Under the pieces are notes generated by a model. That model did not search any database and had not been told where the DNA came from. It saw only the letters and a program-made list of their open reading frames with translations. Positions 16,066 through 20,567 of a stretch of DNA of 64,000 nt are shown here, one piece after another (position 1 is the stretch's first letter; each line of letters opens with the position of its first letter). This DNA comes from Vreelandella malpeensis (GTDB taxonomy: Bacteria > Pseudomonadota > Gammaproteobacteria > Pseudomonadales > Halomonadaceae), in contig NZ_WHVL01000002.1 in NCBI RefSeq assembly GCF_020622355.1, positions 310,001-374,000 of the forward strand, written 5' to 3'. Made by a program: the position numbers and the translations under genes.

Positions 16066-16092
16066 TTGTACAGACCGAACAAAACTTGTACA
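16066..16092 (+). promoter_or_regulatory. Paired TTGTACA repeats upstream of the BCCT gene
   Basis: TTGTACA occurs at 16066 and again at 16086, 20 bases apart (about two helical turns), with A/T flanks that also make them an inverted pair. The second copy could serve as a -35 element. This looks like a regulator-binding site, but no known operator is recognised. Confidence 0.4.
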
Positions 16093-16199: not shown

Positions 16200-17840
16200 G
16201 TGGATAACGAGAAGTCCAACCACTCCCCGGATGAGCCGGTCGGCGAGGGAATCCCCTCCCCGGATGGTCCGGCCAACCTCATCGATACCGATTACGTCAT
16301 CGGCCAGGACAACTTCACCCGCGAAGCCATGGGGTTCAAGCTCGATCTGCACGGCAAGGTATTCACGATCTCGGCGATCGTGGTATCACTGTTCGTCATC
16401 CTGACCCTGGCGCTGCAGGATGACATCGCCCACGTCTACGACAGCATCTTTGCGTTTCTGACCGGCAACCTGGCCTGGTTCTTCATGATGGCCGCTAACG
16501 TCTTCGTGATTCTCTGCCTGGGATTGATCGTCTCGCCATTAGGCAAGATCCGCATCGGTGGCGCCAACGCCAAGCCCGACTACACCTATACCGGCTGGTT
16601 CTCGATGCTGTTTGCCGCCGGCATGGGGATCGGTCTCATGTTCTTCGGCGTCAACGAGCCACTGACCCACTTCGGCACCTCCTTCGAGGGTGCCGCTGGC
16701 GCTCCGCTCGGCGGCGCCGAGGGTGACGCGGCGGCGGCGACGGCGCTGGGCATGGCGGCGACCATCTACCACTGGGGCCTGCACCCCTGGGCGATCTACG
16801 CCGTGGTGGCGCTGTCGCTGGCGCTGTTCTCCTTCAACAAGGGGCTGCCGCTCTCCATGCGTTCGGTGTTCTACCCGATCCTGGGCGAGCGGGTATGGGG
16901 CTGGCCGGGCCACGTGATCGACATTCTGGCGGTCTTCGCCACGCTGTTTGGCCTCGCGACCTCGCTGGGTCTCGGCGCGACCCAGGCAGCGGCGGGCCTG
17001 ACCTACCTGTTCGGCGCGCCGGAAAGCGACGTGACCATGATCCTGTTGATCATTGGCATCACCATCATCGCGATCGGCTCGATCGTTGCCGGCGTCGACA
17101 AGGGCGTCCAGCTGCTTTCCAAGATCAACATCGCGCTGGCCGCAGCGCTGCTGTTCTTCGTGATTGGCGTGGGCCCGACCCTGTTCATCGCCACCGGCTT
17201 CTTCGAGAACCTCTACCACTACGCCATCAACTTGCCGGCACTTTCCAACCCCTTCGGCCGCGAAGACACCGGCTTCGTTCAGGGTTGGACCGCCTTCTAC
17301 TGGGCGTGGTGGATCTCCTGGTCGCCCTATGTCGGCATGTTCATCGCACGAGTTTCGCGTGGCCGTACCGTACGTGAGTTCCTGATTTCGGTGCTCATCG
17401 TGCCAACGTTGGTCTCGGTATTGTGGATGACAGCCTTCGGTGGCACGGCGATCGACCAGTTCGTGAGCCAGGGCATCGACGCGGTACGCCAACAGGGGGT
17501 CGACCTGCAGCTGTTCGTGATGCTTGAGCAGTTGCCGCTGTCCCAGATCACCTCATTCCTCGGTATCGTGCTGGTGGTCGTGTTCTTCGTGACCTCTTCG
17601 GACTCCGGATCGCTGGTGATCGACTCCATCACGGCCGGCGGCAAGGTGGATGCGCCGAAGCCGCAGCGGGTCTTCTGGGCGCTGATCGAAGGGGCGATCG
17701 CCATCGCGCTGCTGCTCGGTGGCGGTCTGACGGCGCTGCAGAGCATGGCGGTGTCCACCGGCCTGCCCTTCACCCTCATCCTGCTGGTATCGTGCTACGC
17801 CATCGTCAAGGGTCTCATGAGCGAGCCCAAGGCGGTCTGA
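16200..17840 (+). CDS. BCCT-family betaine/choline/carnitine transporter
   Basis: This is a 546-residue secondary transporter with about twelve spans. Family hallmarks are the glycine-rich GMGIGLMFFGVNEPLTHF (sodium- and substrate-binding helix) and the tryptophan-rich FYWAWWISWSPYVGMFIARV with the following RGRTVREF. The GMGIG motif rather than GMGMG/proton-type variants points to a sodium-coupled betaine carrier such as BetP/OpuD, but choline cannot be excluded. The GTG at 16200 has GGAGAAG just upstream; an ATG at 16086 would add an implausible Cys-rich extension. The N-terminal tail is hydrophilic and acidic, and the C-terminal tail is very short, unlike the long osmosensing tail of BetP. 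It lies directly downstream of proX. Confidence 0.9.
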   Translation: MDNEKSNHSPDEPVGEGIPSPDGPANLIDTDYVIGQDNFTREAMGFKLDLHGKVFTISAIVVSLFVILTLALQDDIAHVYDSIFAFLTGNLAWFFMMAANVFVILCLGLIVSPLGKIRIGGANAKPDYTYTGWFSMLFAAGMGIGLMFFGVNEPLTHFGTSFEGAAGAPLGGAEGDAAAATALGMAATIYHWGLHPWAIYAVVALSLALFSFNKGLPLSMRSVFYPILGERVWGWPGHVIDILAVFATLFGLATSLGLGATQAAAGLTYLFGAPESDVTMILLIIGITIIAIGSIVAGVDKGVQLLSKINIALAAALLFFVIGVGPTLFIATGFFENLYHYAINLPALSNPFGREDTGFVQGWTAFYWAWWISWSPYVGMFIARVSRGRTVREFLISVLIVPTLVSVLWMTAFGGTAIDQFVSQGIDAVRQQGVDLQLFVMLEQLPLSQITSFLGIVLVVVFFVTSSDSGSLVIDSITAGGKVDAPKPQRVFWALIEGAIAIALLLGGGLTALQSMAVSTGLPFTLILLVSCYAIVKGLMSEPKAV

Positions 17841-17868: not shown

Positions 17869-17897
17869 AAAACGGGCAGCCCAGCTGCCCGTTTTTT
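17869..17897. terminator. Bidirectional terminator between the BCCT gene and the exonuclease gene
   Basis: AAACGGGCAGC-CC-AGCTGCCCGTTTTTT type hairpin with A-tract on the left and T-tract on the right. It serves two convergent genes. Confidence 0.9.
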
Positions 17898-17912: not shown

Positions 17913-18641
17913 TCAGCACCAGAAGCGCTCGAGTGGGGTCTCGGGACTGTAGTGATGCGCCACTTGAGCCTGGAAGAGCTCGGCGGTGGCCAGTGCGTCG
18001 ACCAGGGCGTGATGCCCCTGGTAGCTCGGAAGCCCGTAGCGCTGGCGGCTCGCATCGAGGCGAATCGACACCGGCGGGCGCCCCAGCCAGCGGCGAAAGC
18101 GCGCCCACAGCGTCTGGCGGTGCAGGCGGGCCTCGAGCGACATCGTGTCGATCATGGGAAACAGTACGCCTTCGCCTCGACGAGCCTTGACGGCGGCGTC
18201 GAGAAACGGGCGCTCGATGTTGCGAAAATGCACCACCACCAGGCGTCCGGCCAGCTCCTCGAGTAGCGCTTCAAGAATGAGATCGAGATCCGGCGCGTGA
18301 TCGACCTCGGAGTGGGTGATGTGATGGTAGGCGACGGAGCTCTCCTCCAGCGGCCGAGGCGGCTTGACCACCCAATAGCGCCGCGTGGCGAGGGGAATGC
18401 GCGCGAGCGTGAAATGGACGAGCCCGATGCTGACAATCGCGTGGCGCCGCTCGTCGAGCCCGGTGGTCTCCATGTCGAGCGCCACCATGGGCACGTCGGC
18501 GATAGGTGTGTCCGGGGCCGGCAGGCGCGCCTGGAAAAAGCGCGCGAGCATGTCATCCTGAGCGTGGTCGGCGCGACGCGCCAGATAGCCCGCCCAGTCG
18601 GTCTGCGTGATACGTTGGCGGGGACGTATTCCCTTCATCAT
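17913..18641 (-). CDS. DEDDh-family 3'-5' exonuclease (DnaQ-like)
   Basis: This 242-residue protein has the three exonuclease motifs: Exo I ALDMETTGLD (Asp56, Glu58), an Exo II segment VVVHFRNIERPFLD in which the usual Asp is Glu, and Exo III GHHALVDALATAELF with the His and Asp of the DEDDh type. It is not the replicative epsilon subunit; the roughly 50-residue N-terminal helix-rich extension and the genomic pairing with a DUF294 protein mark a separate subfamily, often annotated polymerase III epsilon-like. The gene is 24 bases downstream of the DUF294 gene and probably cotranscribed with it. The substrate is unknown. Confidence 0.8.
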   Translation of the reverse strand: MMKGIRPRQRITQTDWAGYLARRADHAQDDMLARFFQARLPAPDTPIADVPMVALDMETTGLDERRHAIVSIGLVHFTLARIPLATRRYWVVKPPRPLEESSVAYHHITHSEVDHAPDLDLILEALLEELAGRLVVVHFRNIERPFLDAAVKARRGEGVLFPMIDTMSLEARLHRQTLWARFRRWLGRPPVSIRLDASRQRYGLPSYQGHHALVDALATAELFQAQVAHHYSPETPLERFWC

Positions 18642-18665
18642 GCTTTTCTCATCGTTGACGGCGCC

Positions 18666-20567
18666 TCATCGCTGACTGGGAACTGGATAGCGGAACTTGA
18701 GAAACTTCTGCGCGTTGCTCAACACCTGGAAAGCGTCCTTGAGCGTGTGGCGCTCGCTGTCCTCGACATTCTCGGGCTCGATGTTGTTGTCCGGCGTGCG
18801 CTCCTCCTCGAGGTCGATCATCTGGTGACGAAGCCGTGACATGCACAGGAATTCAAAGGCGTAGCTCAGCTTGTCGCTCACCCCGGAGGCGAGCAGCTGG
18901 GTGTGGTTGATGTCCTCGAGGCGCCGAAAGCTGTTTTGCGCCTTTGAGCCGCAGGCGAGCGCGTGAACGCGAATCAGGTCCACCATCGGTGCAGTGCCGC
19001 GGCGCTTCAAGTTGATCGAGTTGTTGTGCTTGCCGTCCTTCTCCATCACGAAGGTGCGAAAGAATCCCAGCGGCGGCGTGCGATTGAGCGCATTACGGGC
19101 CATGGCAGCCAGAAACAGCGGCGCCTGGGGCGCGCGGGTGGCAATCAGATCCTGCAGCGTCTCCACGAAATGACTCTCCCCGTAGACGCTGTCCAAGTCG
19201 AAGAAAATCGAGCTGTGCAGCAGCTTCTCCGGCGTCGGGTTGGCGATCCACTCCTCGAAATACTCCTTCCACACCTTGAGCGGCTGGCGCCAGCGCGGGT
19301 TGGTCGCCATGATGTCACCCTTGCAGTAGGTGTAACCGCAGGCATCGAGGCCATCGCTGACGTAGGCGGCCAACGCCTTGAAGTAGTCGTCGTGGGTGTC
19401 CGGGTCGAAGTCATCGGAAAGGATCAGGGCGTTGTCCTGATCGGTGACGATGCTCTGCTCGTTGCGCGCCATCGAGCCGTTGACCATGAAGCAGTACGGC
19501 ACCGGCGGCGGGCCGAGCTCGGCCTCGGCGAGCTCGAGCAATCGCCGGGTGAAGCTGCGCCCGATAGTCGAGAGCGCGCTGCCGAGCATGACCGAATTGG
19601 CGCCCTCCTGCACCATGCGCACAAACGCCGCGCGCACATCGGCGGAGAGTCGCGCAAGCCCGTAGGCACTCGACTGGTTGAAGATGTTGCTGACCAGATA
19701 AAGGCCGCTGTGGGTCTCGTAGCGAATGATGTCCGACAGATGCACCACGCCCACCGGACGCTGGCGGTAGAGTACCGGCAGATGATGGACGTTGTTGCGC
19801 AGCATGGTGAGCATGGCCTCGTAGATCGAGGCGTCGGACTGGATGGTGATCAGCGCGTGGGAAATCACCTCGCCTACCGGCGTCTGCGGCGACAACCCCT
19901 TCGCGACCACGCGGTTGCGAAAATCGCTGTCGGTCAGAATACCGCACATCTGCCAGCTTTTGCCCTCGCTGTCCTTGAAGCTGTAGCGGGGGTTGTCGCT
20001 GCCTTCGTCGATCACCAGTACCGCCGAGGCCTGGGCGTTACCCACCTGCAGCGCGGCTTCCTGCACGCTCATGGTCGACTCCACCATCACCGGATAGCGT
20101 GAGACCAGCTTGCGAATCCGCGTGACCATCATGTCGTTGGACTTCTTCTGCAGCTCTGCGGCACTTTCGAGGCGCGGTCGCTCGAGCTCGACGAAGTCGG
20201 CGAAATCGTCGTCCTCCTCGCACAGGCGCTGGAACATCGCGTCGCTGATGAAGTAGATCAGCGTATCCTCGATGGCCGTCGCGGGAAAGCGCACCCGGTG
20301 GTTTCGCAGCAGGCTGAAGTGGCCGAAGATGTCGCCCTCGACCAGGCGGTTGTAGAGCTCGCCGCGGCGCCGATACACCTCCACCGCACCGCTGCGGATG
20401 TAGCAAAGCTCATCGATTGTGTCGTTGAGGACGAGGATGTCGGTGCCAGTCTTGAAGTAGCGCACCTCCACGCCCTCGGCGAGCGCATCGAGCAGCTCGT
20501 CGGAAAGGCCATCGAAAGGTGGAAACTGCCCCATGTGCTGACGTATTTCCCAAAGCTCCACGTCCAT
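18666..20567 (-). CDS. cNMP-binding / CBS / DUF294 putative nucleotidyltransferase
   Basis: This 633-residue cytosolic protein has a cyclic-nucleotide-binding domain (about 10-125, with VEGDIFGHFSLL), a CBS pair (about 155-290), a GlnD-like nucleotidyltransferase domain (about 330-470) with GSMARNEQSIVTDQDNAL (364-381), and a C-terminal helical DUF294_C domain. Both catalytic Asp residues are present, so nucleotidyl transfer is plausible. In the cNMP domain the phosphate-binding cassette Arg is not obvious, so nucleotide binding is uncertain. The start has AAGGAG nine bases upstream. In related bacteria this gene and the exonuclease commonly sit beside solute transporters such as acetate permease; here a BCCT carrier is next to them. 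Confidence 0.85.
   Translation of the reverse strand: MDVELWEIRQHMGQFPPFDGLSDELLDALAEGVEVRYFKTGTDILVLNDTIDELCYIRSGAVEVYRRRGELYNRLVEGDIFGHFSLLRNHRVRFPATAIEDTLIYFISDAMFQRLCEEDDDFADFVELERPRLESAAELQKKSNDMMVTRIRKLVSRYPVMVESTMSVQEAALQVGNAQASAVLVIDEGSDNPRYSFKDSEGKSWQMCGILTDSDFRNRVVAKGLSPQTPVGEVISHALITIQSDASIYEAMLTMLRNNVHHLPVLYRQRPVGVVHLSDIIRYETHSGLYLVSNIFNQSSAYGLARLSADVRAAFVRMVQEGANSVMLGSALSTIGRSFTRRLLELAEAELGPPPVPYCFMVNGSMARNEQSIVTDQDNALILSDDFDPDTHDDYFKALAAYVSDGLDACGYTYCKGDIMATNPRWRQPLKVWKEYFEEWIANPTPEKLLHSSIFFDLDSVYGESHFVETLQDLIATRAPQAPLFLAAMARNALNRTPPLGFFRTFVMEKDGKHNNSINLKRRGTAPMVDLIRVHALACGSKAQNSFRRLEDINHTQLLASGVSDKLSYAFEFLCMSRLRHQMIDLEEERTPDNNIEPENVEDSERHTLKDAFQVLSNAQKFLKFRYPVPSQR

Follow-up and report, generated by a model that had tools for sequence, protein, structure and literature searches.

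We analysed 64,000 nucleotides of the Vreelandella malpeensis genome (contig NZ_WHVL01000002.1, positions 310,001 to 374,000; "the window"), in which the gene of a DUF294 protein and that of an exonuclease-fold protein stand side by side, facing the gene of a BCCT carrier. The best single explanation of this arrangement, which we hold tentatively and with somewhat less than even confidence, is that the two genes encode a switch that controls a membrane carrier by reversible nucleotidylation. In such a switch the DUF294 protein would sense a ligand via its cNMP-like and CBS domains, and its transferase would put a nucleotide, probably AMP, on the carrier or on a carrier-bound partner, lowering uptake; the exonuclease-fold protein would hydrolyse the protein-nucleotide phosphodiester, restoring uptake. 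The carrier would be the BCCT in the window and an ActP-type symporter in a related branch. Computation here gives the pairing, the linkage to carriers, the conserved catalytic residues and a predicted fold like that of GlnE and DrrA; the modification, its target, its sign and the role of the exonuclease as eraser are inferred. In favour of the switch, the exonuclease is closely tied to DUF294 genes, and BCCT genes accompany the window's DUF294 clade in three arrangements; to these come growth data from Pseudomonas putida on pyruvate, where loss of the presumed eraser resembles loss of the carrier and loss of the presumed writer costs nothing. An initial annotation of this DNA had already placed such a pair beside a carrier; both open reading frames are where it put them, and the neighbour is a BCCT. 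The three genes are:

18666..20567, minus strand: DUF294 protein of 633 aa, a sensor joined to a putative protein nucleotidyltransferase (four Pfam domains, model)
17913..18641, minus strand: exonuclease-fold protein, 242 aa, with D56, E58, E143, H210 and D215 (Pfam, NCBIfam, motif residues, model)
16200..17840, plus strand: BCCT carrier, likely GTG start (583 bits, profile positions 1-484 of 485)

The DUF294 gene is followed on the same strand by the exonuclease gene after a gap of 24 bp, and the BCCT gene converges on the pair with 72 bp between the convergent stops. To see how often the two proteins occur together we used a class sample of 185 gammaproteobacterial genomes, in which DUF294_C was detected in 62 (58 above cut-off) and relatives of PRK09146, the NCBIfam family of the window exonuclease, in 36 at an E value of 1e-20 (6 above cut-off). 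Cross-reading the two tables, 32 of the 34 PRK09146 matches of at least 140 bits lay directly downstream of a DUF294_C gene on the same strand. The exceptions were genome G048, where the exonuclease is at one contig start and the DUF294 gene at another, and genome G141, where the exonuclease stands apart, near an acetyl-CoA synthetase gene. Seen from the DUF294 side the pairing was looser. There were 81 DUF294_C matches listed, of which 66 fell in fetched stretches (2 of them in the window genome) and 15, mostly the weakest, were omitted; two short matches (L071 second, L092) were excluded from the 62 DUF294 genes counted. An adjacent exonuclease was present at 42 of these 62. Of the remaining 20, five stand ahead of a second DUF294 gene in their operon, which has the exonuclease next to it, and four have a long protein ending in RNase_T in their surroundings. 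Closer to the window, relatives of its DUF294 protein occur at E 1e-30 or below in 77 of 81 genomes of the same bacterial family, and in 70 of the 81 one has at least 51% identity over near full length; in the named loci (L134-L193) the exonuclease stood behind DUF294 in 60 of 60, two frame-broken genes being counted by their last piece.

Several loci depart from the simple layout. Two DUF294 genes share an operon at L036, L042, L045, L060 and L064, in the order DUF294, DUF4212, SSF, DUF294, exonuclease, acetyl-CoA synthetase. At L182, L184 and L186 (Halomonas/Vreelandella) the DUF294 gene reads in two or more frames, through sequencing error or decay. In six Halomonadaceae loci (L128-L133) a short DUF294 protein, with only the transferase and the C-terminal domain, has a histidine kinase and a long protein that ends in RNase_T in its vicinity, and at four of these (L128, L129, L132, L133) a small response-regulator-cluster gene is also nearby. 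Neighbour profiles were built from the fetched loci; in the representatives of the two that we labelled "SSSHK" and "HKEXO", Pfam confirmed only kinase/PAS and RNase_T domains.

The pair also recurs outside these groups. From a plasmid collection 14 of 64 matching records were examined, two of them unannotated in the stretch. In Salinivibrio the pair follows galK, galM and a sodium/sugar symporter; on three Vibrio plasmids it lies in a kdgR/kduD locus, with a chemoreceptor following it in two; the V. penaeicida pair has a DMT transporter and an SSF protein close by; and in Hymenobacter (Bacteroidota) its order is reversed, inside a glycoside hydrolase locus. Four of five alphaproteobacterial records have a long exonuclease-matching protein no more than a few genes after DUF4212-SSF-DUF294, the Skermanella record having none. 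At the alphaproteobacterial loci L253 (6646-8625) and L264 (7710-9794) the exonuclease domain forms the end of a long protein in a symporter-DUF294 operon, after a response regulator. The pairs PP_0354-PP_0353 of P. putida and PA3233-PA3232 of P. aeruginosa have the same domain types and gene order as the window pair. A P. aeruginosa record has the genes of DUF485, ActP, DUF294 and exonuclease in this order, with a 4-bp overlap between the final two; that pair follows ActP and not a BCCT, and its exonuclease has an Asp-type Exo II in place of the Glu of the window protein.

Linkage to carriers follows the DUF294 lineage. An SSF gene lay within 3.5 kb of 43 of the 62 class-sample DUF294 genes and a BCCT gene of 4; the usual SSF locus reads DUF4212-SSF-DUF294-exonuclease, often with acetyl-CoA synthetase, and most relatives of the window's DUF294 clade are linked to acetate-type sodium symporters. 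On a DUF294 tree of 102 proteins, built by a quick method with the Shimodaira-Hasegawa approximate likelihood ratio test as its only support, the window protein fell in a clade of 35 rows (support 100), 33 of which have a BCCT within 3.5 kb; of the remaining two, L116 has a BCCT about 9.6 kb away and L061 none linked. The nearest BCCT in the 33 rows is convergent and downstream in 29, upstream and co-directional in 3, and downstream and co-directional in 1. The choice between SSF and BCCT maps onto this tree as one change. Of the 60 named loci, 55 have a convergent BCCT at 4 kb or less, and in the other 5 a contig ends within 900 bp of DUF294; the convergent arrangement is also found in Photobacterium and Vibrio records. 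The survey of DUF294 neighbours had been set beforehand as a test of the proposal, and its outcome was positive, as the pair recurs and carrier type follows the DUF294 tree.

Neither chance nor simple co-inheritance of the carrier gene accounts for this. The window genome (3.6 Mb) has 6 BCCT and 7 SSF genes, and by our own arithmetic a random gene would lie 3.5 kb or less from one of the 6 BCCT genes about 2% of the time; given this density and the recurrent linkage in the survey, we rejected chance adjacency. When 83 BCCTs (33 linked, 50 others) were placed on a tree, the linked ones did not form one clade, starred branches forcing at least seven changes, and the linked BCCT of Vibrio came from a different subclade than that of Halomonas. 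We therefore rejected a single co-inherited orthologue; the linkage outlives swaps of the carrier gene, which seems to have been exchanged and yet stayed a BCCT.

The larger protein combines sensor domains with a putative transferase:

20211..20462, minus strand: cNMP_binding domain, residues 36-119 (49.7 bits, cut-off 27.5)
19710..20123, minus strand: CBS pair, residues ~149-286 (Pfam second repeat 231-283; structure matches across the pair)
19227..19640, minus strand: DUF294 nucleotidyltransferase domain (PF03445), residues 310-447, with G364, S365, D376 and D378 (164.8 bits)
19197..19199, minus strand: codon of D457, candidate third catalytic carboxylate (residue kept in 111 of 111 homologues)
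18687..19118, minus strand: DUF294_C domain (PF10335), residues 484-627 (150.4 bits)

Both PF03445 and PF10335 scored above cut-off, placing the protein in the DUF294/DUF294_C families; it is 99% identical to one from Halomonas sp. 707D7. Pfam missed the first CBS repeat, and the model resembles CBS-pair structures over residues ~145-286. The combination of cNMP-like sensor, CBS pair and nucleotidyltransferase that had been read from the translation is thus borne out by Pfam and by the model. The GS...DxD transferase motif is intact, G364, S365, D376 and D378 being kept in 110, 111, 110 and 111 of 111 homologues. At L090 (5978-8533, plus strand) a DUF294 protein has Cache and PAS domains in front, replacing the cNMP domain, so that the same transferase carries another sensor.

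The model of this protein (26 sequences; mean predicted local distance difference test score, pLDDT, 79.9; predicted template modelling score 0.60) was compared with solved structures. Over residues ~285-628 it matched the N-terminal half of GlnE (1v4a; Z 25.6, root mean square deviation (rmsd) 3.2, 315 aligned), the adenylylation half of GlnE (3k7d; Z 24.1, rmsd 3.3, 307 aligned) and DrrA (6yx5; Z 22.6, rmsd 4.3, 299 aligned), which outscored all other structures among the matches listed for the transferase half. GlnE and DrrA are enzymes that AMPylate proteins. Searched by sequence against solved structures, the transferase half had no match up to E 10. CD-NTases and RNA-modifying transferases were absent from the 50 structure matches listed, which excludes neither. 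The predicted model thus has both the transferase fold and the helical C-terminal domain of GlnE type, and the earlier label "GlnD-like" was right in kind, the best solved-structure match being GlnE. A writer and an eraser in one polypeptide were not found, as Pfam recognized one transferase domain and no HD domain; lacking a second transferase or HD domain, the protein may work like GlnE or GlnD, and we do not file it among them. The likeness to GlnE lies in the predicted fold of residues 285-628; GlnE has two transferase domains against one in the window protein, which adds cNMP and CBS sensors in front and has a separate exonuclease-fold partner. In the available text of PMC3710099, DUF294_C is placed with the protein-acting C-terminal domain of GlnD and GlnE.

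The smaller protein matched Pfam RNase_T (46.5 bits, cut-off 24) and belongs to the NCBIfam subfamily PRK09146 (NF006602; 338 bits, curated cut-off 266). Its Exo I DxE (D56, E58) and Exo III H-x4-D (H210, D215) agree with a strict DEDDh motif, and Exo II does not, since Glu143 replaces the usual Asp, just as the initial annotation had claimed:

18213..18215, minus strand: codon of Glu143, the Exo II residue (motif alignment and clade distribution)

On sequence grounds we file it as an RNase_T/DnaQ-fold protein with a D-E-E-H-D site. Across 82 exonucleases directly behind DUF294 genes, Exo II was Glu in all 32 from BCCT-labelled pairs and in the 1 labelled with both carriers; among the 42 SSF-labelled pairs 22 had Glu, 17 Asp and 3 some other residue, and among the 7 pairs without either carrier 5 had Glu and 2 Asp. 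On the DUF294 tree, 60 of 61 partners inside one 65-row clade have the Glu and 0 of 21 outside it. A private mutation or decay was thus rejected; as Glu extends across the clade and into SSF-linked pairs, it is an old subgroup marker that is not specific to BCCT loci. The model (25 sequences, mean pLDDT 85.2) matched the exonucleases PolC (9qpc; Z 20.3) and DnaQ (2gui; Z 19.6). It shares with these proofreading enzymes the fold and the active-site carboxylates and His, and differs in its Exo II Glu and in being encoded by a gene of its own that is linked to a DUF294 transferase. RNase Z, a nuclease of a different fold, is to our knowledge not encoded together with its writer. It resembles the proposed eraser in being a nuclease that strips AMP from proteins, acting as the deAMPylase of SelO targets, and so offers a precedent for such a role (PMC12663964, available text).

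Published genetics in Pseudomonas bear on the direction of the switch. According to the accessible part of PMC9927547, pp_0354 (CBS-domain protein) and pp_0353 (RNase_T) of P. putida KT2440 form an MxtR/ErdR-controlled operon, and each was deleted. Neither gene mattered for growth on acetate; on pyruvate the pp_0353 and actP-I mutants were impaired and the pp_0354 mutant was not, the impaired strains being delayed and reaching the same final density. Such an asymmetry would follow from pp_0354 placing an inhibitory mark and pp_0353 taking it off, a reading that is ours and not that of the authors, who propose mRNA degradation and, in the same text, leave other mechanisms possible. Excerpts of further papers report that ErdR binds the promoters of the pp_0354 and actP-I operons (PMC8402216), that PA3232-PA3235 are raised on propionate (PMC9765439), and that the P. 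fluorescens homologue, already termed a predicted nucleotidylating regulator, gave a mutant without phenotype (PMC5715377). Among titles and abstract beginnings, the DUF294-exonuclease combination was absent apart from the Pseudomonas regulon papers; no title naming DUF294 was found, several matches being longer names such as DUF2946, and nothing was found for DUF4212.

A number of observations weigh against the switch. Nucleotide transfer, a modified carrier and removal by the exonuclease were not found in any source examined. No exonuclease was seen near 11 of the 62 class-sample DUF294 genes, and 15 of the 62 lack both SSF and BCCT within 3.5 kb; at such loci Pfam found no carrier in 10 chosen neighbours, other carriers not having been searched systematically. 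The Pseudomonas pair is distant, the P. aeruginosa DUF294 protein being 25.6% identical to the window's, and the KT2440 pair does not adjoin actP-I. The lack of a phenotype in the DUF294 mutants of P. putida (PMC9927547) and P. fluorescens (PMC5715377), as given in the available text, would fit irrelevance of the gene too. The symporter-linked second pair of the window genome (L075) has an exonuclease without catalytic residues (contig C9, 9154-9726, minus strand) beside an intact transferase; L124 is alike, in L120 the residues of Exo I are gone, and in L121 Exo II carries Asn. Such dead exonucleases count against a universal eraser role, and that branch may have lost reversibility, be served by another exonuclease, or use the protein in a non-catalytic role. 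Reversible control of a transporter, as the initial annotation had imagined it, is thus supported in part: it is strengthened by the survey of carrier linkage, the predicted GlnE/DrrA fold, the conserved carboxylates and the P. putida asymmetry, and weakened by L075 and by the negative results on transfer, modified carrier and removal.

Other explanations were weighed on the same evidence. The exonuclease might trim RNA (mRNA or tRNA 3' ends), thereby tuning the carrier or central metabolism, with the DUF294 protein regulating it or adding nucleotides to the same RNA. The DnaQ/PolC fold and intact acidic site of the window exonuclease suit this, as does the mechanism proposed in the accessible part of PMC9927547; we nevertheless think it rather unlikely, because the top structural matches of the transferase act on proteins and because RNA trimming leaves the tie between exonuclease and DUF294 unexplained. 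It is unlikely, too, that the switch is real with another protein as target (the exonuclease, a regulator, or an enzyme of metabolism, for instance acetyl-CoA synthetase) and the carriers merely co-regulated neighbours. Acetyl-CoA synthetase genes are frequent in SSF-linked loci, and in Pseudomonas the CrbS/R (MxtR/ErdR) regulon includes the DUF294 gene as well as actP (PMC5715377 and PMC8402216, available text), but BCCT linkage survives changes of orientation and of BCCT paralogue, and on pyruvate the exonuclease mutant resembles the carrier mutant (PMC9927547, accessible part).

A small nucleotide messenger, made by the DUF294 protein, degraded by the exonuclease-fold protein and controlling the carrier, appears improbable. 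A polymerase-beta-type transferase and a phosphodiesterase-like partner could be maker and breaker, and the cNMP and CBS domains of other proteins are nucleotide binders. Against this, the predicted fold resembles GlnE and DrrA, no such messenger is known for DUF294 proteins, and DUF294_C is grouped with a protein-acting domain (PMC3710099, available text). We regard it as similarly improbable that the two genes have no mechanism in common and are held together by inherited synteny: within Halomonadaceae much of the neighbourhood is common by descent, but the pair recurs amid different neighbours in Vibrio, Salinivibrio and P. aeruginosa, and in reversed order in Hymenobacter.

The remaining features concern the BCCT gene and its surroundings:

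16293..16295, plus strand: codon of Tyr32 in the BCCT N-tail TDYxIGQDN, candidate modification site only (tail comparison)
17873..17891, no strand assigned: inverted repeat flanked by runs of A and T, in the gap separating the convergent genes (read by eye)

The carrier matched PF02028 over its full length, and, read by eye, a GTG start at 16200 is likelier than one at 16086. It exceeded the TIGR00842 subfamily cut-off and fell below the betaine equivalog cut-off. Upstream on the same strand is an ABC transporter of ProVWX or choline type, and the inverted repeat is likely a terminator shared by the convergent genes. The T, D and Y of the tail motif occurred in 33 of 33 linked BCCTs against 24% of 50 others; judging by the printed tails, the non-linked BCCTs with TDY seem to belong to that broader clade as well, so common descent may be explanation enough for the motif.

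Reversible nucleotidylation is textbook nitrogen control, through GlnE and GlnD. Nucleotidylation of a protein by the DUF294 transferase is already a printed prediction (PMC5715377, available text); the exonuclease as eraser and the BCCT branch were not found among the papers searched. A bolder extension, which we consider doubtful, is that the DUF294-exonuclease pair serves secondary carriers in general as an interchangeable unit of control: the carrier itself would be nucleotidylated (in the BCCT perhaps at Tyr32), a repurposed proofreading-type exonuclease would be the dedicated de-nucleotidylase, and carriers (acetate-type, sugar, betaine-type) would have been swapped while the unit was kept. 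If the window pair does to carriers what GlnE and GlnD do in nitrogen control, it would represent a widespread layer of transport control that senses via cNMP and CBS domains, with an exonuclease fold turned into a protein eraser; it would also give a function to two uncharacterised families and explain the pyruvate phenotype of P. putida.

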